DNA of 64,000 nucleotides from Chryseobacterium sp. MYb264 (GTDB taxonomy: Bacteria; Bacteroidota; Bacteroidia; Flavobacteriales; Weeksellaceae). Location of the stretch: assembly GCF_035974275.1 (NCBI RefSeq), contig NZ_CP142422.1, forward strand, positions 4,402,001-4,466,000, in the 5' to 3' direction. The position numbers and the translations under genes were made by a program. The notes beneath the pieces were generated by a model, which saw only the letters and a list, made by a program, of their open reading frames with translations, did not search any database and was not told where the DNA came from. Positions 35,808 through 54,195 of this stretch are shown in pieces; position 1 is the first letter of the stretch, and each line of letters starts with the position of its first letter.

Positions 35808-35822
35808 AATTAAGAAAAAGAT

Positions 35823-35830
35823 TTATCTTT
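35823..35830 (+). promoter_or_regulatory. -7 promoter element before the 42-codon leader ORF
   Basis: TATCTTTG matches the Bacteroidota TAnnTTTG element. It lies 14 bp before the ATG of the leader ORF at 35845, giving a very short 5' UTR. The -33 region would fall at the right end of the IS copy. Confidence 0.65.
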
Positions 35831-35844
35831 GCGCCAATATAATT

Positions 35845-35973
35845 ATGACAATACAAAGAGCACATATCAGTTTAAATCTATGCGATCGCCCTGCAGTAAA
35901 GGGATCGTTTGGATATGAATGGATGATATCAGATGAGGCGAAATGTGCTTGCTTTGGAAATTATTTACAATAA
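35845..35973 (+). CDS. 42-codon leader ORF using all 20 amino acids (attenuator candidate)
   Basis: The peptide (MTIQRAHISLNLCDRPAVKG ...) contains each of the 20 amino acids at least once in 42 residues, including Trp, His and three Cys. It is followed after 29 bp by an intrinsic terminator (36003-36029). GAGGCG inside the ORF (35935-35940) can pair with CGCCTC in the 5' arm of that terminator. This is the layout of a translational attenuator. No homologue is recognised. The role as a sensor of any uncharged or cleaved tRNA is inferred. Confidence 0.6.
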   Translation: MTIQRAHISLNLCDRPAVKGSFGYEWMISDEAKCACFGNYLQ

Positions 35974-36002
35974 ACCCGTAAAAATTTTATCAAGATACAG
36001 TA

Positions 36003-36029
36003 AAAACGCCTCGGTTGCCGGGGCGTTTT
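36003..36029 (+). terminator. intrinsic terminator after the 42-codon leader ORF
   Basis: AAAACGCCTCGG and CCGGGGCGTTTT form a 12-bp stem (one G-T pair) with a TTG loop, continuing in T-rich sequence. The competing pairing with GAGGCG at 35935-35940 is described under the leader ORF. Confidence 0.85.
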
Positions 36030-36259
36030 TTGTGTTTTTAAGGCAGAAATTATTTAGAATGAAAAAAAATAACCATAAAAGTGAAAATTATTTATACAAA
36101 AATGAACAATTAATAAGAAAATAAAGCGTGATCAATAACCCGATGAGAGACAGTCATTTAGGTATTTAAGACATCTGTAAAGTATTGCGGACGGAAATTC
36201 TCTATTCTAAAAACAAAGTTTAATTTATTGATTTTCAAATAGTTAATTAAAAAAATAAA

Positions 36260-36292
36260 TTTGCGAGTTAAAAAATTTCATCCTTACTTTGC
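36260..36292 (+). promoter_or_regulatory. shared promoter-like element before array 1
   Basis: TTTGCG ... CCTTACTTTGCA resembles the elements at 46804 and 49763 and, less closely, at 52288. The TTACTTTG part acts as the -7 region. The GCG motif lies further upstream here than in the other three. A perfect 7-bp hairpin (TTGAAAG / CTTTCAA, about 36303-36330) follows in the leader. Confidence 0.6.
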
Positions 36293-36361
36293 AACCGAAA
36301 ATTGAAAGCAACAAGTTTTCAAGCCTTTCAAAAGAACTTTTTTTAAAACAAGAAAAATAAA

Positions 36362-36499
36362 ATGAAACAATTACATAACATATCTAATTTACCTTCAAGA
36401 CAACGCGGTGTAGAACCGATGGGGCAGGGGTATGCTTGTATTATTCTTCTTGATAGTGAATTTGTGGGAAAAAGGTGCTTATATAAATGGGTCAGCTAA
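36362..36499 (+). CDS. 45-codon leader ORF using 19 of 20 amino acids (attenuator candidate)
   Basis: The peptide (MKQLHNISNLPSRQRGVEPM ... LYKWVS) lacks only threonine. A strong terminator starts 23 bp after its stop, and tRNA-like array 1 begins right behind that. AGGTGCTTATAT in the ORF's last codons (36473-36484) can pair with ATATAAAGCGCCT (36519-36531) through 12 pairs with one bulged A, masking the 5' terminator arm. This alternative pairing supports attenuation control of array 1 by leader translation (inference from visible structure). It is unrelated in sequence to the 42-codon leader. Confidence 0.65.
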   Translation: MKQLHNISNLPSRQRGVEPMGQGYACIILLDSEFVGKRCLYKWVS

Positions 36500-36522
36500 T
36501 GTAGCGACACGTCTAAAAATAT

Positions 36523-36555
36523 AAAGCGCCTCCCAAAAAGAGGCGCTTTTTTTTA
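36523..36555 (+). terminator. intrinsic terminator / attenuator in front of array 1
   Basis: AAAGCGCCTC and GAGGCGCTTT form a perfect 10-bp stem with a CCAAAAA loop and a long T-run. It separates the promoter and leader ORF from the tRNA-like array, so array expression from this promoter needs read-through. Confidence 0.92.
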
Positions 36556-36556
36556 T

Positions 36557-36629
36557 GGTTTCTTTAGCTTATTTGGTAAAGCGTCGGTTTGTGGCACCGG
36601 AGAATAGGGTTCGATCCCCGGAGATACCC
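36557..36629 (+). tRNA. tRNA-His(GTG)-like gene with acceptor mismatch
   Basis: The anticodon loop TTGTGGC (anticodon GTG) is on a TCGGT/ACCGG stem. The D-arm AGCTTATTTGGTAAAGC is normal. The acceptor GGTTTCT/AGATACC has a T-T mismatch, and the T-stem has an A-G mismatch. CCA is not encoded. It is the first element of array 1. The irregular stems suggest a relaxed or decoy tRNA, not a main cellular one. Confidence 0.75.
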
Positions 36630-36634
36630 AAAGA

Positions 36635-36720
36635 AGTGAATGGTGAATAGTGAATTTTGTTTCACAAGTGAATTTAAAAATTGACAAGCAAAGCGAATTG
36701 ACGCTTCACTATTCACTAAT
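36635..36720. repeat. palindromic spacer repeat, type A, copy 1
   Basis: AGTGAATGGTGAATAGTGAA, then TTTTG[CT]TTC and AAGTGAATTTAAAAATTGAC, AAGCAAAGCGAATTGAC, ending CACTATTCACTAA. Related copies lie at 38390-38475 and 39254-39333. The ends are inverted, so each can fold back. Confidence 0.65.
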
Positions 36721-36724
36721 AAAT

Positions 36725-36800
36725 AATCTCATAGCTCAATTGGATAGAGCGTCGGTTTACGACACCGAAGGTTGAGGGTTCGAATCCTTCTGAGATTACA
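36725..36800 (+). tRNA. tRNA-Arg(ACG)-like gene
   Basis: The acceptor AATCTCA/TGAGATT is fully paired, the D-arm is AGCTCAATTGGATAGAGC, the anticodon loop is TTACGAC (ACG), and the T-arm is GAGGGTTCGAATCCTTC. It is an AT-rich acceptor without encoded CCA. Confidence 0.82.
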
Positions 36801-36804
36801 AAAT

Positions 36805-36880
36805 AATCTCATGGCTCAAATGGTTAGAGCACCGGTCTTTTAAATCGGGGGTTGAAAGTTCGAATCTTTCTGGGATTACC
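36805..36880 (+). tRNA. tRNA-Lys(TTT)-like gene
   Basis: The acceptor AATCTCA/TGGGATT is paired with one G-T, the anticodon loop is CTTTTAA (TTT), and the T-arm GAAAGTTCGAATCTTTC is good. The acceptor is nearly identical to that of the preceding Arg-like gene, as if the two had recombined. Confidence 0.82.
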
Positions 36881-36882
36881 AA

Positions 36883-37010
36883 GGTTCCGTAGCTCAATTG
36901 GATAGAGCATGGGTTTTCTAAACCCAGGGTTACAGGTTCGAAATACGAAGTATTCGTGAATACCATAAAAATAAAATATGAAATTCATGAACAATCCTGT
37001 CGGAATCACA
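36883..37010 (+). tRNA. tRNA-Arg(TCT)-like gene with 52-nt T-loop insertion
   Basis: The acceptor GGTTCCG/CGGAATC, D-arm and anticodon loop TTTCTAA (TCT on TGGGT/ACCCA) are normal. The T-arm reads ACAGG TTCGA, then an insertion at about 36942-36993, then AT CCTGT. Without the insertion the loop becomes TTCGAAT. The insertion contains a short hairpin (AATAC/GTATT), the conserved CGTG, an A/T-rich stretch and ends in ATGAACA. Confidence 0.8.
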
Positions 37011-37015
37011 AAAAC

Positions 37016-37102
37016 GGAGAGTAGGCAAATATTGGTTTGTTGCGGCTTACTGCTAATGAGTTCTACGACAGTAGTGAAGGTTCAATTCCTTTGCTCTCCG
37101 CA
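37016..37102 (+). tRNA. tRNA-Ser(GCT)-like gene
   Basis: The acceptor GGAGAGT/GCTCTCC has seven pairs. The anticodon loop is CTGCTAA (GCT), there is a long variable arm hairpin (CTAC/GTAG) as expected for serine, and the T-arm is GAAGGTTCAATTCCTTT. The anticodon stem contains two G-T pairs. Confidence 0.75.
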
Positions 37103-37107
37103 AAAAA

Positions 37108-37232
37108 GGTTTATTGAGGTAATGGCTAACCTGCCTGACTGTCGCTCAGGCACTGCGAGTTCGAAATGCAAAGCATTCGTGTACGCAAATAAAAAAATAT
37201 AGGCGATGGTGAACAATCTCGCATAGACCGCA
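37108..37232 (+). tRNA. tRNA-Asp(GTC)-like gene with 51-nt T-loop insertion
   Basis: The acceptor GGTTTAT/ATAGACC is paired. The anticodon stem-loop GCCTGA CTGTCGC TCAGGC carries GTC. The T-arm GCGAG TTCGA ... AT CTCGC is interrupted by an insertion at about 37165-37215 of the same type as at 36942 (hairpin AATGC/GCATT, CGTG, A/T-rich, GGTGAACA). Confidence 0.8.
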
Positions 37233-37233
37233 A

Positions 37234-37294
37234 AGATTCACGGAAAATTTCGGATCCGACTGTCTCTCGGAGAAGAATTGAAAGTGAATCTACA
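37234..37294 (+). tRNA. truncated tRNA-like element lacking a T-arm
   Basis: AGATTCA/TGAATCT form a 7-bp acceptor-like stem. Inside is one hairpin, TCCGA CTGTCTC TCGGA, resembling an anticodon arm. No T-arm or TTCG motif is present, and the total length is only 61 nt. It may be a decayed or minimal mimic. Confidence 0.5.
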
Positions 37295-37297
37295 AAA

Positions 37298-37371
37298 CTG
37301 GAAAGATAACGGTGGTTGGTTACCCGTCTTGGACGCGGGAGGTCGCAAGTTCGAATCTTGCTTTCCAGACA
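37298..37371 (+). tRNA. tRNA-Pro(TGG)-like gene
   Basis: The acceptor CTGGAAA/TTTCCAG is perfect, the anticodon arm is CCCGT CTTGGAC GCGGG (TGG), and the T-arm GCAAGTTCGAATCTTGC is perfect. It is one of the most canonical members of the array. Confidence 0.85.
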
Positions 37372-37375
37372 GTTT

Positions 37376-37450
37376 GCTCCATTCGTCTAATGGTTTAGGA
37401 CGGCTGCCTTTCGAGCAGTAGATAAGAGTTCGATTCTCTTATGGAGTGCA
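37376..37450 (+). tRNA. tRNA-Glu(TTC)-like gene, first copy
   Basis: The acceptor GCTCCAT/ATGGAGT has one G-T pair, the anticodon loop is CTTTCGA (TTC), the D-arm contains TCGTCTAATGGTTTAGGACG, and the T-arm is AGAGTTCGATTCTCT. A similar gene lies at 38482. Confidence 0.85.
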
Positions 37451-37453
37451 AAA

Positions 37454-37527
37454 GATTTCGTAGCTCAATGGTAGAGCGCTGGTCTGTTAAACCAGAAGTT
37501 GAAAGTTCGAGCCTTTCCGGAATCGCA
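37454..37527 (+). tRNA. tRNA-Asn(GTT)-like gene
   Basis: The acceptor GATTTCG/CGGAATC has one T-G pair, the D-arm is AGCTCAATGGTAGAGC, the anticodon arm is CTGGT CTGTTAA ACCAG (GTT), and the T-arm is GAAAGTTCGAGCCTTTC. Confidence 0.85.
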
Positions 37528-37560
37528 AAAAACTAAATGTTAATTGTTTCAAAAGAGAAA

Positions 37561-37631
37561 AAGAAAAGGTTTGTCGAGAGCAGAAGATCTTTACGCCAAA
37601 AACACGATATAATATAGACAAGCTTTTTCTT
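37561..37631 (+). ncRNA. array-1 hairpin element, copy 1
   Basis: AAGAAAAGGTTTGTC and GACAAGCTTTTTCTT form a 15-bp stem around a conserved core (GCAGAAGATCTTTACG) and an A/T-rich loop. Three further copies keep the stem while changing its sequence, so base pairing is conserved. Confidence 0.7.
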
Positions 37632-37708
37632 AACTCAATTAAAAAACAAGTAATAATAGGCTGGAAGATGGATGGTGGAAGTTTTAAACATAATATAAAT
37701 TTTTAGGT

Positions 37709-37774
37709 AAAATAAAGTTTGTCAAAGCGCAGGAGTTCTTATATCAAACAAAAATTAAGACAGACTTTATTTTT
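37709..37774 (+). ncRNA. array-1 hairpin element, copy 2
   Basis: The stem AAAATAAAGTTTGTC / GACAGACTTTATTTT encloses the core GCGCAGGAGTTCTTATATC. It differs from copy 1 in both stem strands with pairing preserved. Confidence 0.7.
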
Positions 37775-37844
37775 TAATAGAATTTAAAGATGAAATATTA
37801 TCTAAAGACTATCAACTATCAACCAACAACTAGTTGCAAAAAAT

Positions 37845-37979
37845 GATGGTTCGCCGAAGTGGAAGAGTCGGGGCGGTCTGCAAAACCGTTGTGAAAACTG
37901 AGTGGGTTTTGAAATGTGAAACATTCGTGAATTCAAAATAAAAAATAAAAAGGTTATGAACACTCCCATGACCATCTCA
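37845..37979 (+). tRNA. tRNA-Cys(GCA)-like gene with T-loop insertion
   Basis: The acceptor GATGGTT/GACCATC has seven pairs. The D-arm CGCCGAAGTGGAAGAGTCGG is shared with the Tyr-like gene. The anticodon arm is GCGGT CTGCAAA ACCGT (GCA). The T-arm GTGGG ... CCCAT carries an insertion from about 37913 to 37960 with hairpin AATGT/ACATT, then CGTGAATTC, A/T-rich sequence and TTATGAAC. Confidence 0.78.
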
Positions 37980-38003
37980 AATAACTAAAATGAGATTAGT
38001 TCC

Positions 38004-38081
38004 GAAGAAAAAGAAAAAGTTTGTCGAGCGAAGAAGTTCTTATATCAAACAAAAAATTAAAGACAGGCTTTATTTTTCTTC
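38004..38081 (+). ncRNA. array-1 hairpin element, copy 3
   Basis: A long stem between GAAGAAAAAGAAAAAGTTTG (then TC) and GACAGGCTTTATTTTTCTTC encloses the core GAGCGAAGAAGTTCTTATATC. It is placed between the Cys-like and Tyr-like genes. Confidence 0.7.
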
Positions 38082-38170
38082 ACAAGAAAGAAGTTAGATG
38101 CTAGAAATTAGAAGTTAGAGATTTAGTATGATCTAAAAACTATCAACCAGCAACTATCAACTAAAAATCC

Positions 38171-38311
38171 GGAAGTACGCCGAAGTTGGAGAGTCGGGGC
38201 AGACTGACATGAGGAACGAATTGAACGATTCCTAAAAAAATAAATAGAAAAAACAGAGTTAAAATCTGTTGTTTCATTGCTGAGTAGGTTCGAATCCTAC
38301 TACTTCCACCA
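38171..38311 (+). tRNA. tRNA-Tyr(GTA)-like gene with ~53-nt insertion in the anticodon loop, CCA encoded
   Basis: The acceptor GGAAGTA/TACTTCC and T-arm GTAGGTTCGAATCCTAC are perfect and an encoded ACCA follows, unlike its neighbours. The anticodon region reads GGCAGACTG, then about 53 nt (roughly 38207-38259), then TAAAATCTGTTG. Bacterial tRNA-Tyr has GCAGACTGTAAATCTG, so the interruption falls inside or next to the GTA anticodon. The variable arm is Tyr-like. The insertion contains AGGAA/TTCCT and CGATTCCT. Confidence 0.78.
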
Positions 38312-38314
38312 ACA

Positions 38315-38388
38315 CCGCTGATAATGTAATGGCAGCATGCAGGAAATGTACTCTTGTTGTTCAGGTTCGACTCCTGGTCAGATGGTCA
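38315..38388 (+). tRNA. degenerate tRNA-like element
   Basis: A Gly-like D-arm (ATAATGTAATGGCAGCAT), a possible anticodon arm CAGGA AATGTAC TCTTG (TGT, Thr, but without T33) and the T-arm TTCAGGTTCGACTCCTGG are visible. The acceptor CCGCTGA/TCAGATGG pairs only with a bulge. The isotype is uncertain. Confidence 0.5.
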
Positions 38389-38389
38389 A

Positions 38390-38475
38390 AAAAAGTGAAT
38401 GGTGAATAGTGAATTTTGCTCCGCAAGTGAATTTAAAATTGACTGCAAAGCAAATCGACAATTCAGAATTCACAC
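38390..38475. repeat. palindromic spacer repeat, type A, copy 2
   Basis: It has the same sequence family as 36635-36720 (GAATGGTGAATAGTGAATTT, GCAAGTGAATTTAAAATTGA). Confidence 0.65.
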
Positions 38476-38481
38476 AAAAAT

Positions 38482-38556
38482 GCTCTATTCGTCTAACGGT
38501 TCAGGACGCCTGCCTTTCGAGCAGAAAACAAGGGTTCGATTCCCTTATAGAGTACT
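38482..38556 (+). tRNA. tRNA-Glu(TTC)-like gene, second copy
   Basis: The acceptor is GCTCTAT/ATAGAGT, the anticodon loop CTTTCGA (TTC) and the T-arm AAGGGTTCGATTCCCTT. It is similar to but not identical with the 37376 gene. Confidence 0.85.
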
Positions 38557-38570
38557 GGTTAAATGGGAAC

Positions 38571-38645
38571 GAGAAAGGTTTTGTCAAGCGCAGAAGATCT
38601 TTACAAAAAATTACAGGCATAGTTTTATAATAGACAAGCCTTCTC
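38571..38645 (+). ncRNA. array-1 hairpin element, copy 4
   Basis: The stem GAGAAAGGTTTTGTC / GACAAGCCTTCTC encloses the core AAGCGCAGAAGATCTTTAC. Compensatory differences from copies 1-3 keep the stem. Confidence 0.7.
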
Positions 38646-38659
38646 AGACCTAAAATATA

Positions 38660-38765
38660 AGTAATGAGTAATGTGCAATGAGTAATTATTGCGATGGTTA
38701 TAATGAATTATGAATTTTAAAAATAATTTTTTATTACTGATTACCAATTACTCATTACTTATAAA
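38660..38765. repeat. palindromic spacer repeat, type B, copy 1
   Basis: AAGTAATGAGTAATGTGCAA and ACCAATTACTCATTACTTAT form the two ends of an imperfect inverted repeat. Related copies occupy 38846-38958 and 39040-39122, one between each of the last tRNA-like genes. Confidence 0.7.
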
Positions 38766-38769
38766 ATCC

Positions 38770-38845
38770 GCGGGAATGGTGGAAATGGTAGACACACTTG
38801 ATTTAGGCTCAAGGTTTTGGGGGTTCGAGTCCCTCTTTCTGTACA
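38770..38845 (+). tRNA. tRNA-Leu(TAG)-like gene with wobble-rich acceptor
   Basis: The anticodon arm is CTTGA TTTAGGC TCAAG (TAG). The D-arm ATGGTGGAAATGGTAGACAC is typical of leucine. The acceptor GCGGGAA/TTTCTGT has three G-T pairs of seven. The long variable arm expected for Leu is almost absent. Confidence 0.7.
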
Positions 38846-38963
38846 AAATATAAGTAATAAGTAATAAGTAATAAGTAATAAGTAATCAGCAATGAGTAAT
38901 TATAAAGCATGATTTTAATATTACTAATTACCAATTACCAATTACTCATTACCTATAAAACTT

Positions 38964-39038
38964 GGAAGAGTGGTGTAGCAGGTCTGCACGTTAGTCTGAA
39001 AAACTAAAGGTACAGGTTCGATTCCTGTCTGTTCCGCA
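38964..39038 (+). tRNA. tRNA-Phe(GAA)-like gene with acceptor mismatch
   Basis: The anticodon arm is TTAGT CTGAAAA ACTAA (GAA), and the T-arm ACAGGTTCGATTCCTGT is perfect. The acceptor GGAAGAG/CTGTTCC contains one G-G mismatch. Confidence 0.78.
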
Positions 39039-39125
39039 GAATATGAGCAATAAGTAATGTGCAATGAGTAATTATGAAACATGATTTTAATATTACTCAT
39101 TACCTATTACTCATTACTTATAAAT

Positions 39126-39250
39126 TGATTCATAGTGTAATTGGTCAGCACACAAGACTTTGACTCTTGTTGTTCAGGTTCGAAATGCAGAGCATTCGTG
39201 AATTCATTAAATAAAATATAAAATTCATGAACAATCCTGATGAATCAACG
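39126..39250 (+). tRNA. tRNA-Gln(TTG)-like gene with 50-nt T-loop insertion
   Basis: The acceptor TGATTCA/TGAATCA is perfect, and the anticodon arm is CAAGA CTTTGAC TCTTG (TTG). The T-arm TCAGG TTCGA ... AT CCTGA is split by an insertion at about 39184-39233 (hairpin AATGC/GCATT, CGTGAATTCATT, A/T-rich, AATTCATGAACA). Confidence 0.8.
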
Positions 39251-39378
39251 AAAAGATGAATGATCAAAGGTAAATTTTGCTTCGCAAGTGAATTTAAAAA
39301 AATTGACAAGCAAAGCGAATTGACTATTCACAATTGAAATTATTAACAAATAAGTATTTAAACAAACATGTAGAAAAA

Positions 39379-39864
39379 ATGGAAACGCAACAACAAACAT
39401 GGCAGAACATGACGGGAAAAATTTTCCAACACTCTATCACACAGTTGGTAGAAGAAGCCATCATCCGCGAACAGGCAAATGGGCACCGACTGAAAGTGTG
39501 TGTGGGTTCAGACTCCCACGTTTACGGTGATGCCATTAATTATGCTACGGCAGTTGTCTTTATTCGTGAGGGAAAAGGAGCGTTTACCTTTATCAGAAAA
39601 GAAAGAGAAATACAGAATATCAGTATCAAAGAGCGAATGCTGAACGAGGTGAACAAATCCGTGGAAATCGCTTATGCCATTTGCTCTATTCTGGAAACTT
39701 ATGATGTGGAAATGGAGGTACACGCAGACATTAACACCGACCCGGATTTCAAATCCAACGTCGCTTTGAGAGACGCTATGGGATATATTCTGGGAATGGG
39801 ATATGTGTTTAAAGCAAAACCTTACGCATTCGCAAGTTCAAATTGTGCTGATATGATGGTGTAA
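39379..39864 (+). CDS. DUF458 / RNase H-fold protein (YkuK-like)
   Basis: The start METQQQTWQN gives 161 residues. An in-frame start at 39334 would add 15 residues from the array border. Acidic residues in KVCVGSDSHVYGD and EVHADINTDPDFKSN fit an RNase H-like metal site. DUF458 proteins occur in RNA-repair operons, probably as nucleases or RNA-binding factors. It opens the protein-coding part directly behind array 1. Confidence 0.82.
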   Translation: METQQQTWQNMTGKIFQHSITQLVEEAIIREQANGHRLKVCVGSDSHVYGDAINYATAVVFIREGKGAFTFIRKEREIQNISIKERMLNEVNKSVEIAYAICSILETYDVEMEVHADINTDPDFKSNVALRDAMGYILGMGYVFKAKPYAFASSNCADMMV

Positions 39865-39945: not shown

Positions 39946-40758
39946 ATGAAAACAATTTTAATCATTAACGGAGAAAAATACTGGAAAGATTATTTTGCAG
40001 GATTTAATGTGGTTCAGAAGAAAGTTCAGACCTCAGAATTTATTGTAAAAGATGCTGAATTATATGTGATTGATGCAGATGGAGCCTGCAAACCGGATGT
40101 GATTTTTTGGAGATTGGGAGCGATAAATCCTGAAGCAAAACACAGAAATATTTTAGAATTAATCGAATATTCAGGAATTCCTTGTGTAAACTCAGCTTCA
40201 ACATTATTAATGGGTTACGAAAGATTATCAATGTTAAACAGATTGAAAAAACTAGGATTACCTGTTATTGATTTTAATGTAGCAACCAATACAGACCAAT
40301 TGAAAAATCTGGAAATGCAATTTCCTTTTGTGGTTAAAGTTGGAAATCATCACGGTGGATACGGAAAAAGTCTGGTTTCGACTGAAGAACAATGGGAAGA
40401 ACTGAAAGATTTGCTGTTTATCCATCAGGATTATGTGACGACAGAGAAATTTATTAATTATAAATATGACATCCGTTATCTGGCTGTAAATGATAAAGTT
40501 TGGGCAATGAAAAGAAAAGGCAAATATTGGAAAGCCAATTCTTTAACCCAAGAATATCAAATCATCGAGCCGGAGAAAGAATGGATAGAAAAAGTAAAAC
40601 TGTTACAGAAAAACATTAAAGCAGATATTGTTGCGATTGATGTTCTGGAAACAGAAAACGGAGAAAAAGTGATTTTAGAATACAATGATATTCCCGGACT
40701 TTCAGGATTTCCTGAAGATGCAAAGCTGGAATTAGCGAATATTGTAAAAAGTAAATAA
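39946..40758 (+). CDS. RimK-type ATP-grasp protein
   Basis: This 270-residue ATP-grasp enzyme has nucleotide-binding segments in FPFVVKVGNHHGGYGKSLV, YVTTEKFI and DIRYLAVNDK, and metal ligands in IAIDVLETENG and ILEYNDIPGL. ATP-grasp proteins of this type ligate an amino group to a carboxylate. RimK-like members are found in RNA-repair neighbourhoods with unknown substrates. It is followed by the cREC gene after 9 bp. Confidence 0.85.
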   Translation: MKTILIINGEKYWKDYFAGFNVVQKKVQTSEFIVKDAELYVIDADGACKPDVIFWRLGAINPEAKHRNILELIEYSGIPCVNSASTLLMGYERLSMLNRLKKLGLPVIDFNVATNTDQLKNLEMQFPFVVKVGNHHGGYGKSLVSTEEQWEELKDLLFIHQDYVTTEKFINYKYDIRYLAVNDKVWAMKRKGKYWKANSLTQEYQIIEPEKEWIEKVKLLQKNIKADIVAIDVLETENGEKVILEYNDIPGLSGFPEDAKLELANIVKSK

Positions 40759-40767: not shown

Positions 40768-41139
40768 ATGGAACTCACAAAAAGATTATTATTTCTGGAT
40801 GATATAAGATATCCGAACGAGGCATATCAATATACCAAGCAGGATATTTTCCTCAGAAAAGATTGGCATATCGTTCGAAATTATGAGCAGTTTGTCAATA
40901 GGATTTTGGAAAAAGGACTTCCTGAAATGATCTCTTTTGACCACGACCTTGCTGATGAACATTATTTGGAACCGAATTCTCAGGAATTTGTCGAAAAAAC
41001 AGGCTACGATTGTGCAAAATGGCTGGTAGAATATTGTATGGATAACTATCTAGACTTACCAAAATTCTATTGCCACTCAATGAATCCTGTGGGAAAGGAA
41101 AATATTGAAAGCTTTTTAAAGAACTTTAAAAATTTGTAA
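40768..41139 (+). CDS. cREC: cyclic-phosphate-processing receiver-like protein
   Basis: This 123-residue receiver-like fold protein has the acidic pair D11-D12 in LLFLDDIRYP and a second cluster in MISFDHDLADEH. This pattern belongs to the cREC family, proposed to process 2',3'-cyclic phosphate RNA ends in repair operons. It overlaps the next gene's ATG by 1 bp. Confidence 0.85.
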   Translation: MELTKRLLFLDDIRYPNEAYQYTKQDIFLRKDWHIVRNYEQFVNRILEKGLPEMISFDHDLADEHYLEPNSQEFVEKTGYDCAKWLVEYCMDNYLDLPKFYCHSMNPVGKENIESFLKNFKNL

Positions 41140-41702
41140 TGAACATTTTTAGATTAATTCAAGATATAAAAACGCATTTAAAACTAAGTTTTGATGAGGC
41201 TGACCGATGGTTTGATAAAGATAATGAAACGTTGAATTTTCAGCCTTCAAACGGAGGTTGGACGGTTCGACAGATTTTAGAACATATTTATCTCACAAAT
41301 TTTTATTTGTTGATTCTCATTGAAAAGGGTTCAAAAAAAGCAATGCGGAATCATCTCGATCTTGATTTAAATCTTGAAATAGAAAATTATACTTTCGATC
41401 AGGAAAAGTTTGAAAAAGTAGGTGAGTACGGTGCTTTTGAATGGATAAGACCCGAACACATGGAACCGAAAGGAGAATTGAATTTAACTGAAATCAGAAG
41501 TTTAATTTCTCAGCAATATCATCAATGTTTACATTATTTAGAGTTGATGAAAAATGGCGAAGGTCTTCTCTGTAAAACGACAATGACAGTGAATGAATTA
41601 GGGAAAATCAATGTGTATGAATACATTTATTTCCTTTCACTTCACGCTCAGAGACACGTTACTCAGATGAAAAATAATGAATTAGAAACTATTAAAAATT
41701 AA
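41139..41702 (+). CDS. DinB-family protein
   Basis: This is a 187-residue four-helix-bundle protein of the DinB superfamily with candidate metal histidines in ILEHIYLTNFY and SLHAQRHVTQM. It is probably a metal-dependent enzyme of unknown substrate. It is translationally coupled to cREC and precedes the Rnl2-like gene by 5 bp, so it belongs to the repair operon. Confidence 0.8.
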   Translation: MNIFRLIQDIKTHLKLSFDEADRWFDKDNETLNFQPSNGGWTVRQILEHIYLTNFYLLILIEKGSKKAMRNHLDLDLNLEIENYTFDQEKFEKVGEYGAFEWIRPEHMEPKGELNLTEIRSLISQQYHQCLHYLELMKNGEGLLCKTTMTVNELGKINVYEYIYFLSLHAQRHVTQMKNNELETIKN

Positions 41703-46840: not shown

Positions 46841-46898
46841 TTATCAAAATAAAACAACACTAAAATTTTGAAAAACAGATTTTAGTCAAAATATCAGG

Positions 46899-46982: not shown

Positions 46983-47014
46983 AAGGTTTGAGGAGTTTGC
47001 CAAAAAACTTCTAC

Positions 47015-47092: not shown

Positions 47093-47094
47093 TT

Positions 47095-47180: not shown

Positions 47181-47239
47181 AATAGACTCAAAATCTATTT
47201 TTTTTCGAGTTTGAATATTCTTATTAAAAATATTCATGG

Positions 47240-47636
47240 AAAAGTCTGGGATGTTTTCAGTTGTTAAATCAACATTTTGAAAAAGCCTGTAAGAAAAGAT
47301 GTTTTCTGAAAATGAAATCGAGAGGAAGAATTAATAATTCTTGGATGAATTTTCTAAAAAGGACGGTTTTCCGCGTGAGCGATGGTAACGGATACCCCGC
47401 AGTGAAGAGCGAAAGCGATGAACGAGGAGTAGAAGTGAACGTAGCGACCCAAGCTGCTGGTAAAGCGATGGCGAGGGACACGCCCAAAATCTGACTCATT
47501 AGAAACTGAATTTGAAAATTAAAATTCCGAACTCAATGAATTTTTCTGAATTGCTTTCCTTCCGCCGTTTTTGGAAGAAGAGATTCCGGATTTTCCTTTT
47601 TTATTGAAATTAATAACCATTTAAAATAGTAAAACG
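47240..47636. other. non-coding region between array 2 and slipin
   Basis: It includes a GC-richer segment (about 47370-47480: GGATACCCCGCAGTGAAGAG, GAACGTAGCGACCCAAGC) resembling a reverse, rearranged copy of the REP-like sequence at 23195. A GGAAG/CTTCC hairpin lies near 47566. A 77-codon frame here is not convincing. Confidence 0.5.
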
Positions 47637-49858: not shown

Positions 49859-51376
49859 ATGAAATTTAATTTTTTAAGAAAAGAGAATAAAGTAGTAACG
49901 AACTACGAAGGTGCAAAGGCTTACACCATGACGCCTGCAGAAGAATTGTACAGTGCTGTTGTTACAACAGGATTATCAAACGCAACCTATGAAAAAGGAA
50001 ATGACAGATTGGCGAGAATTCAGTCTCTGATTCTGAAAAACGACCCGGAATTCGTTGCAAAATTAGCAATTTATGCAAGAAAAGAGATGTACTTGCGTTC
50101 GATTCCATTGGTTTTGACGACCGAATTGGCGAAACAAGCTTCGGGTACAGACTTGGTAAGCAGAACCGTTGACGGAGTTATCCAAAGAGCAGACGAAATC
50201 ACAGAATTGCTGGCATATTACCAATTGGCAAACGAAAGAACAGATTTGAAAAAATTGAACAAACTTTCAAAACAAATCCAGAAAGGTTTGGTAAAATCAT
50301 TCAATAAATTTGATGAATATCAGTTCGCAAAATACAACAGAAAAGCAGAAGTTACCTTGAAAGACGCTTTGTTTCTGGTTCACCCAAAAGCAAAAGATGA
50401 AAATCAACAGGCAATTTTCAACAAAATAGTCAACGATTCCTTGGAAACTCCATATACCTGGGAAGTTGAGCTTTCGGTGTTGGGTCAGACCAAATTTGCG
50501 GATGATGCAGAAAGAAAATCAGCTTTCAAAAGTAAATGGGAAGAATTGATTTTCAGTAACAAATTGGGTTATATGGCCACTTTGAGAAACCTTAGAAATA
50601 TTCTGGAAGCAGATGTTTCTCCTGAAGCGATGAACAAAGTGTGCAACTATTTGTCAGATGAAAGAGCGGTGAGAAATTCAAAACAATTGCCATTCAGATT
50701 TTTGGCTGCATATAGAGAATTGAAAAATATCGATTCAAAATACACTTCATCCATCATGGAAGCATTGGAAAATGCAGTGATGGTGAGTGCGAAAAACATC
50801 AAAGGTTTTGGTTTTGATACTTCGGTCGTGATCGCGGCAGACGTTTCAGGTTCGATGCAGCAACCGGTTTCTCCGAAATCTAAAGTATTGTTGTACGATA
50901 TCGGTTTGCTGATGTCGATGATGTTGCAGTCACAATGCAAAAACGTGATTACTGGTATGTTCGGTGACACCTGGAAGAGAGTTCCGATACCTAAAAGCGG
51001 CATTTTGACCAACGTAGATGCTTTCTATAAAAGAGAAGGTGAGGTGGGGTATTCCACAAACGGTTATCTGGTGATCGAAGATTTGCTGAACAGACGTGAA
51101 AAAGTGGATAAAATAATGCTATTCACCGATACTCAACTATGGAACAGCAACGGAGGTAGAAATTCTTTTGAAAATTCATGGAATCAGTATAAAAGTTTCA
51201 ACCCGAATGCAAAACTATATATCTTTGACTTGGCGGGTTACGGAAAACAGCCGTTGGATGTCAGAAAAAATGAGGTATACCTTATCGCAGGTTGGTCCGA
51301 TAAAATTTTCGATGTACTGAATGCTTTGGAAGACCGAAAATCTGCTGTAGAAATGATTAAAAAAGTAGTGCTGTAA
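49859..51376 (+). CDS. TROVE/Ro60-like RNA-binding protein with vWA domain
   Basis: This is a 505-residue Ro60 orthologue-type protein. The N-terminal HEAT-repeat ring (about 20-310) forms the RNA-binding TROVE domain. The C-terminal vWA domain (about 320-500) has the intact MIDAS motif DVSGS (328-332). Ro proteins bind Y RNAs on the outside of the ring and single-stranded ends of misfolded RNA in the central hole. In bacteria they assist rRNA maturation and RNA decay with exonucleases. It has its own copy of the shared promoter-like element. The arrays offer candidate cognate RNAs. Confidence 0.93.
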   Translation: MKFNFLRKENKVVTNYEGAKAYTMTPAEELYSAVVTTGLSNATYEKGNDRLARIQSLILKNDPEFVAKLAIYARKEMYLRSIPLVLTTELAKQASGTDLVSRTVDGVIQRADEITELLAYYQLANERTDLKKLNKLSKQIQKGLVKSFNKFDEYQFAKYNRKAEVTLKDALFLVHPKAKDENQQAIFNKIVNDSLETPYTWEVELSVLGQTKFADDAERKSAFKSKWEELIFSNKLGYMATLRNLRNILEADVSPEAMNKVCNYLSDERAVRNSKQLPFRFLAAYRELKNIDSKYTSSIMEALENAVMVSAKNIKGFGFDTSVVIAADVSGSMQQPVSPKSKVLLYDIGLLMSMMLQSQCKNVITGMFGDTWKRVPIPKSGILTNVDAFYKREGEVGYSTNGYLVIEDLLNRREKVDKIMLFTDTQLWNSNGGRNSFENSWNQYKSFNPNAKLYIFDLAGYGKQPLDVRKNEVYLIAGWSDKIFDVLNALEDRKSAVEMIKKVVL

Positions 51377-51394: not shown

Positions 51395-51420
51395 TAAAAA
51401 ACTAATAACTATATTTTTTA

Positions 51421-51497: not shown

Positions 51498-51520
51498 AAC
51501 AAAAAAACTGTATAATTATT

Positions 51521-52123
51521 ATGAATAACGAGAATATAAAAAAGAATATTGATGACTGGCTAAAGTTTCTTAATCCTGATGAAGTGAAAAATGAACTTAT
51601 TTCTGCTTCATTATATATAATGTCTTATGATGTTTTAATTAATACAATAGTTGAAAAAATAAAAGATTTTTATACTGATGGACATGATGGAAAAAAGTTT
51701 ACTTTAAGTTCAGCATACAGAAGAGATGTTAAAGGCTTATGTAAAAAAGATATAATATTAGCTTCTTTACTTTGGCTAAAGAAAAATGAGGTTATTACTG
51801 AGGAAGAGATTGAATTAGTTAAAATTTTTAAAACTCATAGGAATGAAATTGCTCACGAAATAATGTACTTTCTTACTGATAGTAGTAAATCAATAAAATC
51901 AGAATATATAGAAGAAATAAAAAAAATAAATTTCAAAATTTTAAAATGGTGGTTTATTGAAGTCGAGATGCAAGTTAATGAAGATTTAAGTAAACTTAAA
52001 ATTGAAGAATTAGACTTTAATCAAGTACTAATAATGGGAATGTTACCTCTTAATATGGCATCCAATATTTTAATTGATGAAAAAGAAAAATTCGATAAGC
52101 GAAAAAACAAACCGATGCCGTAA
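51521..52123 (+). CDS. HEPN-like helical protein
   Basis: The start MNNENIKKNID gives 200 residues. An in-frame start at 51461 lies within the REP-like repeat and is rejected. The protein is all-helical with THRNEIAHEI, an R-x4-H motif (R107, H112) as in HEPN domains, many of which are metal-independent RNases or RNA-binding toxin and defence proteins. The gene is more AT-rich than its neighbours, suggesting transfer. Whether it is an RNase linked to the repair system is inference. Confidence 0.6.
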   Translation: MNNENIKKNIDDWLKFLNPDEVKNELISASLYIMSYDVLINTIVEKIKDFYTDGHDGKKFTLSSAYRRDVKGLCKKDIILASLLWLKKNEVITEEEIELVKIFKTHRNEIAHEIMYFLTDSSKSIKSEYIEEIKKINFKILKWWFIEVEMQVNEDLSKLKIEELDFNQVLIMGMLPLNMASNILIDEKEKFDKRKNKPMP

Positions 52124-52287
52124 GAAAAGAATTCCTTCGATTTCCACTTGAACAAGAGTCTTTTCGCTATATCGCTCGGTTTCACTAACCAATGTCGTTA
52201 TCATAAGAGTTTCATCGTCAAACTTCCAATTTGAAAACATTCAAAAACTCTTAAAAATTGTTACTTGGTTTTTAAAATAAATTTTAA
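52124..52287. other. intergenic region before array 3
   Basis: No feature was recognised beyond a TCATAAGAGTTTCATCGTCA segment. The promoter-like element of array 3 follows at 52288. Confidence 0.4.
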
Positions 52288-52324
52288 CTGCGTAAAAAGA
52301 ATGCGCACTGAGGTAATAATTTTG
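52288..52324 (+). promoter_or_regulatory. shared promoter-like element before array 3
   Basis: CTGCGTAAAAAGAATGCGCA, then TAATTTTG, a perfect TAnnTTTG, with the same 16-nt offset as the elements before array 2 and TROVE. Confidence 0.68.
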
Positions 52325-52345
52325 CTTCAACAAAAAACAATAACC

Positions 52346-52387
52346 ATGAATTATTATAAATCATTTCATAAAGGAGCACTGTATTGA
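52346..52387 (+). CDS. 13-codon leader ORF (MNYYKSFHKGALY)
   Basis: This short ORF lies directly behind the promoter-like element, with ACCATGAA start context as for the TROVE gene. Its stop codon falls in the left arm of a perfect 8-bp hairpin (52381-52404) that ends 2 bp before the next ATG. Such an arrangement could couple translation of the next ORF to that of this one. Confidence 0.4.
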   Translation: MNYYKSFHKGALY

Positions 52388-52404
52388 GTTTAAATACTCA
52401 ATAC
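52381..52404 (+). promoter_or_regulatory. hairpin in front of the 75-codon ORF
   Basis: GTATTGAG and CTCAATAC form a perfect 8-bp stem around TTTAAATA. It overlaps the stop of the 13-codon ORF and could occlude ribosome entry at the ATG at 52407. Confidence 0.55.
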
Positions 52405-52406
52405 TT

Positions 52407-52634
52407 ATGCAAAAATTAAAGTCATTAAGACAAGCTTTCGGAATTAATGAACAAGGATTAATTGATTTTCCGAAGAAAATTTCAAATGTCCGGATTTCCA
52501 GAATTTTGTATGGAAATGAAATGGGATGCTCCTGGTGTTTTCCACATGGTTTTGAGACTGTGAATGCGAAGCAGGATAAGTTTCAGCGAAATTGGAAAAA
52601 ATACAGAAAAACACAATGGAAACTAAAAAAGTAA
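52407..52634 (+). CDS. 75-codon basic ORF at the head of array 3
   Basis: This 75-residue, strongly basic peptide contains all 20 amino acids. It has a CSWCFPHG segment (C-x2-C-x2-H) that could bind zinc, and a basic, Trp-containing tail (RNWKKYRKTQWKLKK). Its stop codon overlaps the first array-3 repeat by 2 bp. It may be a real small RNA-binding protein or a third all-amino-acid leader. The sequence alone does not decide. Confidence 0.6.
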   Translation: MQKLKSLRQAFGINEQGLIDFPKKISNVRISRILYGNEMGCSWCFPHGFETVNAKQDKFQRNWKKYRKTQWKLKK

Positions 52635-52658
52635 GTGTCGTAGAACAGAATTTCTTCG

Positions 52659-52740
52659 TTTGGGAATGGTGATACAGGTTCGAGCCCTGTTTCTGGGAAA
52701 TCAGAATGGCGTAAATGGTAGCGCGCCGTTAGTAAGTCTC
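52659..52740 (+). ncRNA. array 3 unit 1: permuted tRNA-Pro(TGG)-like
   Basis: After repeat 1 come the complete anticodon loop TTTGGGA, stem strand ATGGT, T-arm ACAGGTTCGAGCCCTGT and acceptor TTCTGGG. Two or three A link to acceptor ATCAGAA (six pairs), D-arm GGCGTAAATGGTAGCGC and anticodon strand GCCGT (five pairs including G-T). All arms form only if the halves are exchanged. Confidence 0.75.
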
Positions 52741-52798
52741 TGTTTGATTTTTTTACCTTACTTAAAAACAATCGATGCCGTAAAAAAGAGTTACTTCT

Positions 52799-52856
52799 AC
52801 TTTACATTGAAACCTAATCTCTTTTTGAAAATTGCTCGATTTTAAAATTATCTTAC
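52799..52856 (+). other. array 3 unit 2: no recognisable RNA
   Basis: This short AT-rich segment between repeats 2 and 3 shows no tRNA arms. Confidence 0.5.
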
Positions 52857-52882
52857 AAGTGCCGTGGATAAAAGTTACTTCG

Positions 52883-52965
52883 ATTTTTTACAAAGGTTCG
52901 AATCCTTTCGCCGAAAGGTGTGGTCGAGTGGCTAGACGAGTTTTAAGACAACTTTTATTAAAATT
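52883..52965 (+). ncRNA. array 3 unit 3: permuted tRNA-like with GAAA-closed acceptor
   Basis: The T-arm AAAGGTTCGAATCCTTT is followed by CGCC-GAAA-GGTG, a 4-bp acceptor stub closed by a GNRA tetraloop, and a D-arm-like TGGTCGAGTGGCTAGACGA. Anticodon pairing is not clear. Confidence 0.65.
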
Positions 52966-53032
52966 TGCCTTGTACTTTAAAAAAATAGTATTTAAACATA
53001 AAAATCAAGTGTCGTTTTAGAATCATACTTCG

Positions 53033-53135
53033 AGATTGAGTAAACATTGGGTCGCAGGTTCGATTCCTGCCTTTTCCCTCGAAAAGGAGAAGTAGCTCAG
53101 ACGGTAGAGCAAATGCACGGAAGATTCTGCAATTA
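53033..53135 (+). ncRNA. array 3 unit 4: permuted tRNA-like with 8-nt acceptor loop
   Basis: The T-arm GCAGGTTCGATTCCTGC and acceptor CTTTTCC come first, then the loop CTCGAAAA, acceptor GGAGAAG (seven pairs, one G-T), TA and D-arm GCTCAGACGGTAGAGC. Anticodon strands AATG and CATT can pair. AGATT occurs at both ends of the unit (5' half ...GGAAGATTC, 3' half ...CGAGATTGA). Confidence 0.78.
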
Positions 53136-53184
53136 TTACCTTGATTTAAAAAACAAAAGAGTGCCGTAGAAAAGGCTTACTTCG

Positions 53185-53285
53185 AGTCAGAATTTAGACC
53201 TCAAAAATCTAAGAAAAAGTGCAATTTCCTGAATAATAGTAAGGATCGGGTGCATGTCTGTCTTTTCGCCTTTTGCCTCTTTTTT
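53185..53285 (+). other. array 3 unit 5: unrecognised sequence
   Basis: It contains a TTAGA/TCTAA hairpin and GGATCGGGTGCATGTCTGTC, but no T-arm or D-arm. It may mimic an RNA that I do not recognise. Confidence 0.4.
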
Positions 53286-53333
53286 AATAAAGAATATAAA
53301 CAAAATCAGGTGTCGTAGTATAGAAATACTTCG

Positions 53334-53415
53334 TCCACGCTTAAGACGCAGGTTCGAATCCTGCCTGTGAAAACAGTCGTCTAAAGGTAAGATGTAAGCC
53401 ATAAGTGTCTGTACG
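53334..53415 (+). ncRNA. array 3 unit 6: permuted tRNA-Gly(TCC)-like with GAAA-closed acceptor
   Basis: TCCAC + GCTTA (3' anticodon loop and stem), T-arm GCAGGTTCGAATCCTGC and CTGT-GAAA-ACAG (closed acceptor) come first. D-arm CGTCTAAAGGTAAGATG and anticodon strand TAAGC follow, with five perfect pairs to GCTTA. The TCC reading assumes opening at positions 33/34. Confidence 0.75.
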
Positions 53416-53466
53416 AAATTTACCTTGATTTAAAATAAAGAGTGCCGTTAGAGAAAACTTACTTCG

Positions 53467-53530
53467 GTTAATCTTATGATGTTGGTTCGACTCCAGAAAA
53501 TAGGTCTGGCAAGACTTATTATTTCGTGGT
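53467..53530 (+). ncRNA. array 3 unit 7: minimal permuted tRNA-like
   Basis: A reduced T-hairpin (TTGGTTCGACTCCAG) is followed by an A-rich linker and a small D-like hairpin (GTC TGGCAA GAC). Acceptor and anticodon stems are not evident. The weak assignment rests on TTCGA and its position between repeats 7 and 8. Confidence 0.45.
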
Positions 53531-53600
53531 TTTCTCGTCCTTTGCCTCTTTTTTAATTTTAAAATTTAACAGATAAGTGTCGTAGAAAAAGGTTACTTCG

Positions 53601-53780
53601 TAACTATAACGGTCCTAAGGTAGCGTAATTCGGGCGACCGAACTAGCGAGGTTGGGTTGAAAACCAACTGGGCAAAAGTTTTCGTAAGAAAGCGCAAGTC
53701 TCTCGTAGATGTAGAATTGCCGGCTCACTGCCCAAATCGGGTAAGAGCGGCGCTCTGAAAAGAGCACACCTTTTTCGCCT
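53601..53780 (+). ncRNA. array 3 unit 8: 23S rRNA helix 69-71 mimic
   Basis: Right after repeat 8 comes TAACTATAACGGTCCTAAGG followed by TAGCG, 25 nt identical to the universally conserved 23S rRNA domain IV segment that is also the I-CeuI recognition site. Next, where rRNA helix 71 is expected, a shortened stem TTCGG-GCGA-CCGAA occurs, then further GNRA hairpins (GGTT-GAAA-AACC and GCGCTCT-GAAA-AGAGCAC). The 5' strand of helix 69 is missing, so the unit is open within that helix. Confidence 0.8.
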
Positions 53781-53837
53781 TTTACCTTATCTGTTTTGAA
53801 AATATAAGAACAAGTGCCGTAGAATAGTGTTACTTCG

Positions 53838-54000
53838 CTCATTACGACGGGGTCGCGGGTTCGAAATGCACGGCATTCGTGAATACAAAAATAAAATATA
53901 AAAGGACAATGAACAATCCTGCCTTTTCCACAAGCAAAAAACACATTTTAAATAGGAAAAGTAGCTCAGTTGGTTAGAGCACGACATTACGCTTTTTGGT
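53838..54000 (+). ncRNA. array 3 unit 9: permuted tRNA (CAT-like) with T-loop insertion
   Basis: T-stem GCGGG ... CCTGC is interrupted in its loop by an insertion (about 53865-53915) of the array-1 type. Acceptor CTTTTCC and GGAAAAG (seven perfect pairs) are joined by a 25-nt A-rich linker, then D-arm GCTCAGTTGGTTAGAGC and CGACATT. CATTACG occurs at both ends of the unit. Comparison with common Met/Ile tRNAs (CGACATTCATAATGTCG) suggests a CAT anticodon. Confidence 0.72.
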
Positions 54001-54055
54001 TGTTGCCTTGTTTTAAAAATAAAAGTGTCGTAGAGAAAAAATACATCGTGAACAT

Positions 54056-54130
54056 TTTGAAGGGGAGGAATAATGAAGTCGGTAACTCCGGCAAGATTAT
54101 CCGGTTCGATTCCGGCATCACGCTGCCCCA
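54056..54130 (+). ncRNA. array 3 terminal tRNA-like element, linear
   Basis: GGGG at the 5' side pairs with CCCC at the 3' side. The T-arm ATCCGGTTCGATTCCGGCA is good, and the middle is irregular. It lies between the last repeat and the terminator and is not permuted. Confidence 0.5.
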
Positions 54131-54163
54131 ATTATTTTTTCGAGTGTGACTTTTTACAATGAG

Positions 54164-54195
54164 AAGCTGTCCTTAGAGGACAGCTTTTTTTTCGT
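54164..54195 (+). terminator. intrinsic terminator of array 3
   Basis: AAGCTGTCCT and AGGACAGCTT form a perfect 10-bp stem with a TAG loop and eight T. It closes the RNA locus. Confidence 0.93.

Follow-up and report, generated by a model that had tools for sequence, protein, structure and literature searches.

In the 64,000-nt stretch of the Chryseobacterium sp. MYb264 genome analysed here (the window; contig NZ_CP142422.1, positions 4,402,001 to 4,466,000 of a 5.23 Mb genome in a single contig), two short open reading frames (ORF1 and ORF2), each followed by an intrinsic terminator, stand ahead of an array of tRNA genes and a run of genes for RNA-processing proteins. Together the two leaders spell all 20 amino acids and, judging from their composition and from the pairing possible between ORF and terminator, we think it probable that they are tandem attenuators which a stall for lack of any one tRNA would open. 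The architecture, conservation and geometry of the leaders were established by computation. The gene order on the + strand is ORF1 and its terminator, ORF2 and its terminator, array 1, DUF458, ATP-grasp, cREC, DinB-like, Rnl2, RLIG1-like ligase, RNase Z-like MBL hydrolase, phosphoesterase, two DEDDh-type exonucleases, array 2, SPFH, TROVE and array 3 (coordinates in Table 1). An initial annotation made from the sequence alone had described an RNA-repair locus interleaved with three arrays of tRNA- and rRNA-like sequences; its interval begins at 35812 and so includes both leader ORFs, of which it made no mention, and it is in this overlooked leader–terminator pair that the logic of the locus is most specific and most open to test.

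Two leader ORFs and their terminators

The leader region was scanned in 58 loci, of which four were set aside as their contigs end before it. Both leaders were present in all 54 remaining loci by a looser scan (start-to-start distance 502–517 nt), while a strict scan retrieved ORF1 in 46 and ORF2 in 48 of the 58. A short ORF followed by an intrinsic terminator was found in 54/54 loci, the ORF1 terminators of five loci having missed the strict filter but being present on direct inspection. The motif TAnnTTTG, the consensus of the Bacteroidetes-type −7 box, lies no more than 130 nt upstream of ORF1 in 54/54 loci and of ORF2 in 29/54 (raw counts, with no chance baseline), and in the window it reads TATCTTTG ahead of leader 1. 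The conserved motif GATGAGAGACAGTCA between the leaders is possibly a regulator site or an RNA element.

The ORF1 and ORF2 peptides jointly cover all 20 amino acids in every one of the 54 loci. ORF1 by itself has 20 kinds in 36 of these loci and 19 in the other 18, and in 20 further genomes (which have the ORF1 start and no strong match to the MBL protein, a 10-kb stretch being taken from each) it has 20 kinds in ten and 19 in ten. The total with 19 or 20 kinds is 74/74, compared with 3.7% of random 42-residue windows, drawn from 30 proteins of the window, that reach at least 19. ORF2 is weaker, with 17–20 kinds across the loci and further genomes. Of 69 loci, 61 reach 19 or more kinds within codons 1–29 of ORF1, ahead of the predicted antiterminator, as does just 1 of 10,359 windows of equal length; the last 29 codons contain 14–18 kinds. 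Cognate codons for at least 18 of the 19 main anticodon classes of array 1 occur in ORF1 alone in 53/54 loci (1.1% of random windows), and a codon for the Arg-ACG class is absent from both leaders in 26/54. Across both strands of the 64 kb, ORF1 and ORF2 were the only ATG-started ORFs of 25–60 codons that have 19 or more kinds and are followed by a terminator no more than 90 nt away; lowering the limit to 18 kinds added one ORF, at 54073. The leader of an attenuator is expected to be enriched in codons of the sensed amino acids, and this is found here in a generalised form, as near-complete coverage of amino-acid kinds and codon classes.

The 5′ arm of terminator 1 in the window is CGCCTCG, and its best complement within ORF1 starts at codon 30 in 51/53 loci. 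For terminator 2 the corresponding arm, which reads AAGCGCCT, GAGCGCCT or AGCACCT, has its complement in the Arg-Cys-Leu codons of ORF2 (AGGTGCTT in the window). When the nascent RNA of the window was folded up to the 5′ arm, both antiterminator pairings formed. Three loci have GAA in place of GAG in ORF1, a synonymous change, and with it CGCTTC in place of CGCCTC in the 5′ arm of the terminator; in two of these both terminator arms have changed. From the complementarity, the window folds and this compensated change, an antiterminator that overlaps the ORF and would exclude the terminator is predicted.

The ratio pN/pS for ORF1 is 0.80 (46 sequences), compared with 0.10–0.15 for DUF458, cREC, Rnl2 and exonuclease 2 in the same loci, and ORF1 is 42 codons long in 67/69 loci, suggesting that the peptide sequence is nearly free while the frame and composition are kept. 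From clade to clade the sequence drifts with its composition retained, and in a column shuffle of the pooled set, which mixes clades, none of 2000 shuffles reached the observed number of kinds. If instead the small ORFs encoded a functional peptide (a toxin, a signal or a protein partner) and the terminators just ended transcripts, the conserved start and constant length of ORF1 would be accounted for, but the high pN/pS, the drift between clades, the complementarity to the terminator and the position directly ahead of a tRNA array all argue against this, and we regard it as very improbable.

Array 1 and the constant core of the locus

Three groups of tRNA-like RNAs among the protein genes had been proposed from the first, and both ARAGORN and reading of the sequence bear this out. 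In array 1 ARAGORN found 10 tRNAs (36557–39037), and further tRNAs that are interrupted by inserts, either in the T-loop (Arg-TCT, Asp, Cys and Gln) or in the anticodon loop (Tyr), were read from the sequence by comparison with intact orthologs. Across the genus up to 18 ARAGORN tRNAs lie directly ahead of DUF458 in an order that is near-constant by eye (His, Arg-ACG/Ile, Lys, Arg-TCT, Ser-GCT, Asp, Pro, Glu, Met/Ile/Leu, Asn, Cys, Tyr, Thr, Glu, Leu, Phe, Gln, Trp). No Ala, Gly or Val tRNA was found among 631 tRNAs from 50 Chryseobacterium loci and 217 from 20 more; these isotypes are not known to be common toxin targets. (A Gly-like tRNA is present in the distant locus L167, see below.) All 19 main anticodon classes of the array are also covered by 54 tRNA predictions outside the locus (31 genome stretches), and array 1 is therefore a set of tRNA genes additional to a housekeeping set. 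In nearly every class the discriminator base of the array tRNAs agrees with that of the housekeeping tRNA (for instance G for Asn, Asp, Trp and Ser, T for Cys, C for His). Phe and Thr are exceptions, with A 19, G 20, C 1 for Phe and T 6, G 4, C 2 for Thr. There are conserved differences in the anticodon loop at position 37 in Glu, Pro, Asp, Gln and Arg-ACG and at position 33 in Thr; thus Pro has A37 in 45/45 array tRNAs (housekeeping G37) and Asp has T37 in 27/33. The earlier suggestion of spare tRNAs is a fit for array 1, given its 19 main anticodon classes, near-constant order, mostly housekeeping discriminators and codon-sampling leader.

These odd but conserved loops would also fit array RNAs that act as decoys, substrates that would be sacrificed to ribotoxins or compete for them and keep them occupied, and not as working tRNAs, and the same can be said of the inserts and of the permuted and rRNA-like forms in the other arrays. 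The discriminators and acceptor pairing are nevertheless kept, which an anticodon-loop decoy would not need, and the 23S rRNA mimic of array 3 does not contain the stretch UUCCU, the cut site of some MazF toxins. On balance we consider decoys rather unlikely, while noting that the tRNA-like domain of YrlA may competitively inhibit an anticodon nuclease, according to PMC7790460.

Array 1 could also be a decaying, horizontally acquired tRNA cluster (for instance of phage origin) with no selected function. Two tandem transposase genes with identical 446-residue predicted proteins (32984–35798) lie immediately to the left of the locus, the array tRNAs are strongly unlike housekeeping tRNAs and those of the window genome carry inserts. 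Against this, order, anticodons, discriminators and leaders are kept genus-wide, as is DUF458 (166/173 genus genomes), and a phage origin was rejected after close-match scans of IMG/VR with Rnl2 and DUF458 returned no relatives; decay of this kind seems to us very improbable. Rnl2 has relatives in 1373 phage records, none of which reaches 60% identity; the 20 matches listed lie at about 32–35%.

The T-loop inserts are hairpins (AATGCnnnGCATTCGTG and variants) at 36938–36990, 37160–37210, 37905–37960 and 39180–39230, with another in one Y-like RNA (53861–53915). Inserts are carried by 15/58 loci, and a Pro tRNA-like element in L166 has one too. A genome-wide mobile element was considered and rejected for the T-loop insert, as only five exact pattern matches were found in the genome, four of them in this locus. 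A palindromic spacer between tRNAs (36636–36720) has 18 matches in the genome, three of which, including itself, are in array 1. Array 1 also contains a hairpin RNA, F2, whose pattern has 103 matches over the loci, all within array 1 and on the same strand. Its stem is 9.47/10 paired compared with a shuffled maximum of 9.18, a value biased by choosing the 3′ arm for best pairing. No match near a gathering score to any Rfam family was found for F2; it may resemble vertebrate Y3.

About 50 Chryseobacterium loci share the gene order and the arrays, and the association of arrays with protein genes, whose absence from relatives was to count against the initial proposal, extends throughout the genus. 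A strong MBL ortholog (E 7e-138 or better) was found in 81 of 320 family genomes, all of one genus. The ORF1 start, allowing two mismatches, occurs once per genome in 160/173 genus genomes (none with a backwards-pattern control), and 158 of these 160 also carry DUF458. ORF2, 3–17 tRNAs and then DUF458 were found in 20/20 of the further genomes, while in 13 of the 20 neither window ligase was matched within the 10 kb and several were without cREC or the exonucleases. The constant core therefore consists of the leaders, the tRNA array and DUF458, the repair enzymes being frequent but optional; the initial label of an RNA-repair locus is too narrow.

Unrelated leaders were found ahead of Rnl2 in all three distant loci with tRNA-like genes. 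All three belong to another family of the order. L166 has Rnl2 at 58% and the second ligase at 63% identity, and L167 and its near-identical relative L168 have Rnl2 at about 49%, with RlaP in L167. Their leaders are unrelated in sequence to those of the window, and each is followed by a terminator. The L166 leader has 19 kinds in 31 residues (0.05% of windows) and the L167/L168 leader 19 kinds in 37 (1.2% of windows); a second leader in L166 and in L167/L168 has an unremarkable 16 kinds, its hairpin in L166 being imperfect. In L166 and L167, from each of which two leaders were examined, every one of the four contains a stretch of 6 nt or more that is complementary to the terminator arm (a raw count with no control). 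By contrast, none of six Rnl2 loci in which ARAGORN found no tRNAs (L165, L169, L177 and L181–L183) has such a leader near Rnl2. In L169 an ORF of 17 kinds, with a hairpin, lies some 4 kb away from Rnl2. Three MBL homologs lie on Cytophagales plasmids annotated without the other genes of the locus.

We propose that a ribosome running through the leader would cover the antiterminator, allowing the terminator to form, and that one held at a hungry codon further upstream would leave the antiterminator free, so that polymerase would read on. As a codon for every amino acid is read before the switch, loss of any single tRNA would open transcription. Read-through would yield spare tRNAs for the isotypes hit by anticodon nucleases; the RNase Z-like MBL hydrolase and the exonucleases may trim ends, cREC and the phosphoesterase may heal them and the two ligases may reseal broken RNAs. 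The Ro60-like TROVE protein may carry the YrlA-like RNAs, whose tRNA- and rRNA-shaped modules would dock tRNA- or ribosome-handling enzymes or damaged targets. In its full form, a universal checker of the tRNA pool that has a codon for each amino acid read ahead of an RNA switch and puts out replacement tRNAs, repair enzymes and Ro60 with a dozen Y RNAs, some tRNA-shaped and one resembling the H69–H70 region of the ribosome, this is a reading towards which we lean, if only slightly; that toxin damage is the trigger we infer.

Several observations weigh against this proposal. A stall sensor cannot separate tRNA loss from starvation or antibiotics, and the leader would respond to these too. Synonymous-codon shuffles reach the observed complementarity in a mean of 10% (ORF1) and 4% (ORF2) of draws, so that each pairing by itself is only suggestive, and with the spacer also searched 4/46 loci had a better match on the ORF1 side than that at codon 30. 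ORF2 has only 14–19 kinds ahead of its antiterminator. Column shuffles inside each of two ORF1 clades gave no excess retention of kinds (P 0.07 and 0.53), and the first eight codons of ORF1 are nearly invariant even at synonymous sites (the search pattern fixed their residues but not their codons). The loci share ancestry, which means that the counts are not independent. Some array tRNAs look poor for translation (Thr A33 in 12/12, Phe G73 in 20/40) and several in the window carry inserts. Finally, as the leaders persist without ligases they are not specific to repair.

The first of these points is what would be seen if the leaders sensed general translation trouble, like the toiL or whiB7 upstream ORFs (uORFs), as attenuators for starvation or antibiotics within a broad translation-stress regulon having no special link to toxins, an explanation to which we give a little under an even chance. 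The causes of stalling are indistinguishable to a leader, toiL responds to at least five antibiotic classes according to PMC12121999, and PMC10272220 reports that the 26-tRNA trn operon of Anabaena is induced by translation-targeting antibiotics and that its repressor TrcR acts also on rtcB and on an operon that includes a slipin gene. Amino-acid starvation, on the other hand, would not be cured by extra tRNAs, and sampling every codon class would seem to exceed the needs of antibiotic sensing.

Protein genes and Y-like RNAs

Protein assignments rest on Pfam and NCBIfam profile searches, and these bear out the initial list of two ligases, cREC, MBL, phosphoesterase, two exonucleases, DUF458, SPFH and TROVE. 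Rnl2 passes the NCBIfam equivalog model TIGR02307 (211.9 bits, cut-off 197.15) and is matched by T4 Rnl2 with E 2.4e-33; the MBL hydrolase scores 219 bits with the NCBIfam RNase Z model, under its cut-off of 315. No Pfam match to the RtcB ligase or the RtcR activator was obtained among the 16 locus proteins scanned. A known defence system was rejected, since PADLOC run on ten proteins matched exonuclease 2 only, and that to a generic DEDDh model.

Array 2 is conserved, noncoding and contains permuted tRNA modules, with a GNRA or UUCG loop capping the acceptor (GCAA in the window, UUCG in genome G176). In array 3 the Rfam YrlA model (RF02553) aligns over its full length (1–114) at 53033–53138 with the order T-arm, acceptor hairpin, D-arm, as it does at 52642–52749 (19.7 bits); the better score, 35.6 bits, is below the gathering score of 69, and the alignment agrees with the permuted forms that had been noted initially. 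Elements sharing the Y-like 5′ motif, between 1 and 12 per locus, lie downstream of TROVE in 26/26 loci with a complete TROVE gene. The 184 elements fall into 12 clusters, their modules comprising permuted tRNAs, short hairpins and the 23S mimic. Their basal stem covaries (5.87/7 paired, shuffled maximum 4.61 in 2000 shuffles, 67 distinct arm pairs) in an anchored test on 157 of the 184 elements, 27 having been dropped for want of an anchor; it replaces an earlier test of the array 3 stem that was biased by choosing the best-pairing 3′ arm.

The rRNA mimic that had been claimed for the locus is real in one element, that at 53576, which shares an exact 27-nt block with the genome's own 23S rRNA in the region of H69–H70 (Smith–Waterman score 77, maximum 53 in 30 shuffles). 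It was found in 12 elements in 12 loci, the block being exact in the window and slightly varied elsewhere. Nine other pieces (Y1, Y2, Y5, Y7, Y10, both halves of array 2, the first array 3 element and the Asp-Pro hairpin) gave no match above shuffles with the genome's own rRNA operon, the array 2 tail coming near the limit (58 against 59). Of the roles once suggested for the arrays, that of substrate mimics agrees with those parts of arrays 2 and 3 that look like Y RNAs with permuted tRNA or rRNA modules; a role as decoys or guides is also conceivable.

Three features of the TROVE–array 3 region may be mentioned. A 199-residue protein (51524–52120) has no Pfam match and is unmatched in the other compared loci; its RNEIAH stretch is reminiscent of HEPN nucleases. 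A 75-residue small ORF with a CSWCFPHG stretch (52407–52634) lies ahead of the main run of Y-like RNAs and is present also in genomes G176 and G082. Matches to the Flavo-1 RNA (gathering score 42) lie on the − strand at 51424–51499 (67.5 bits) and, outside this region, at 23204–23328 (37.8 bits).

Table 1. Features of the locus (window coordinates)
Feature	Coordinates	Strand	Basis or remark
Bacteroidetes-type −7 box (TAnnTTTG)	35824..35831	+	sequence
Leader ORF1, 42 codons, all 20 amino acids	35845..35973	+	ORF scan, locus comparison
Predicted antiterminator TGAGGCG in ORF1, from codon 30	35934..35940	+	complementary to terminator 1 5′ arm
Intrinsic terminator 1	36004..36031	+	fold, −16.6 kcal/mol
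Conserved motif between leaders	36142..36156	+	exact in 44/84 loci, including L166 of another family
Leader ORF2, 45 codons, 19 amino-acid kinds	36362..36499	+	ORF scan, locus comparison
Predicted antiterminator in ORF2, Arg-Cys-Leu codons	36473..36480	+	pairs AAGCGCCT
Intrinsic terminator 2, ends just ahead of tRNA-His	36523..36554	+	fold, −15.5 kcal/mol
Array 1	36557..39249	+	His, Arg-ACG, Lys, Arg-TCT, Ser-GCT, Asp, Pro, Glu, Asn, Cys, Tyr, Thr, Glu, Leu-TAG, Phe, Gln
tRNA-Arg(TCT), hairpin insert in T-loop	36883..37009	+	intact ortholog exists
F2 hairpin RNA, first of four (cores 37570, 37717, 38019, 38580)	37563..37640	+	pattern match
tRNA-Tyr, insert in anticodon loop	38171..38310	+	intact ortholog exists
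DUF458/RNaseH_like protein	39334..39864	+	Pfam; constant neighbour of array 1
ATP-grasp protein, variable member	39946..40758	+	Pfam, locus comparison
cREC cyclic-phosphate-processing receiver domain	40768..41139	+	Pfam
DinB-like protein, variable member	41139..41702	+	Pfam, locus comparison
Rnl2-family RNA ligase	41708..42724	+	Pfam, NCBIfam, T4 Rnl2 match
RLIG1-like RNA ligase	42797..43387	+	Pfam
RNase Z-like MBL hydrolase	43508..44476	+	Pfam, NCBIfam
Calcineurin-like phosphoesterase	44666..45229	+	Pfam
DEDDh-type exonuclease 1	45327..45872	+	Pfam
DEDDh-type exonuclease 2	45967..46515	+	Pfam, NCBIfam, PADLOC
Array 2, permuted tRNA modules	46890..47500	+	first module 47020–47090
SPFH/Band-7 protein	47637..48734	+	Pfam
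TROVE (Ro60-like) protein	49859..51376	+	Pfam
Array 3, some permuted tRNA modules	52100..54165	+	twelve copies of Y-like 5′ motif
Array 3 motif starts	52114, 52191, 52634, 52774, 52858, 53008, 53160, 53309, 53441, 53576, 53813, 54024
Y-like RNA with 23S mimic	53565..53806	+	rRNA alignment

Comparison with known systems

Among open-access titles and abstracts, a body that mostly leaves out subscription papers and preprints, none was found on this locus or on an all-amino-acid leader. The attenuators known so far respond to a single amino acid or to certain drugs; a leader spelling all amino acids would report on the tRNA pool as a whole. If the proposal is right, an output of replacement tRNAs would directly make good the loss that was sensed, bacteria could respond to toxins that cut tRNAs without having to detect the toxin itself, silent tRNA arrays would acquire a function, and the Ro60–Y RNA biology of bacteria would be tied to translation quality control.

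The arrangement resembles classical ribosome-mediated transcription attenuation of the trp type in having a leader ORF, an intrinsic terminator and an alternative antiterminator that overlaps the ORF. It differs in that all amino acids are spelled (trp-type leaders repeat one), in having two tandem units and in standing ahead of tRNAs and repair genes instead of biosynthetic ones. As described in PMC12121999, the toiL uORF of Escherichia coli topAI likewise answers to many kinds of translation stress with one uORF, but acts through a ribosome-binding site and Rho-dependent termination, whereas here there are intrinsic terminators and an all-amino-acid peptide.

The Anabaena trn operon (PMC10272220) has many extra tRNAs and is linked to an RNA ligase and slipin, with co-regulation, silence and a role in translation stress reported as features of that system; there the genes are scattered and controlled by a protein repressor, TrcR, and the accessible part of that report mentions neither a leader peptide nor Y-like RNAs. 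The rsr-yrlBA-rtcBA operon of Salmonella likewise combines RNA repair with a Ro60-like protein and with Y RNAs that have a tRNA-like domain, with a link to tRNA damage as far as described in PMC7790460 and PMC9879122. That operon has RtcB/RtcA and RtcR; the present locus has ligases of the Rnl2 and RLIG1 types, together with about 12 Y-like RNAs, an array of tRNAs and predicted control by leaders. YrlA RNAs (RF02553; PMC8394870, as far as its account goes) share with the array 3 elements the T-arm/acceptor hairpin/D-arm module, the basal stem and the position beside a Ro60 gene; the elements here fall below the gathering score and have many module types, including the 23S mimic. Lastly, array 1 is like the phage tRNAs that evade anticodon nucleases in consisting of extra tRNAs with altered anticodon loops, such phage tRNAs being proposed, in the account of PMC10264068, to replace those cut by toxins; unlike them, the array is chromosomal, is found genus-wide in a bacterium and is predicted to be under stall-dependent control.

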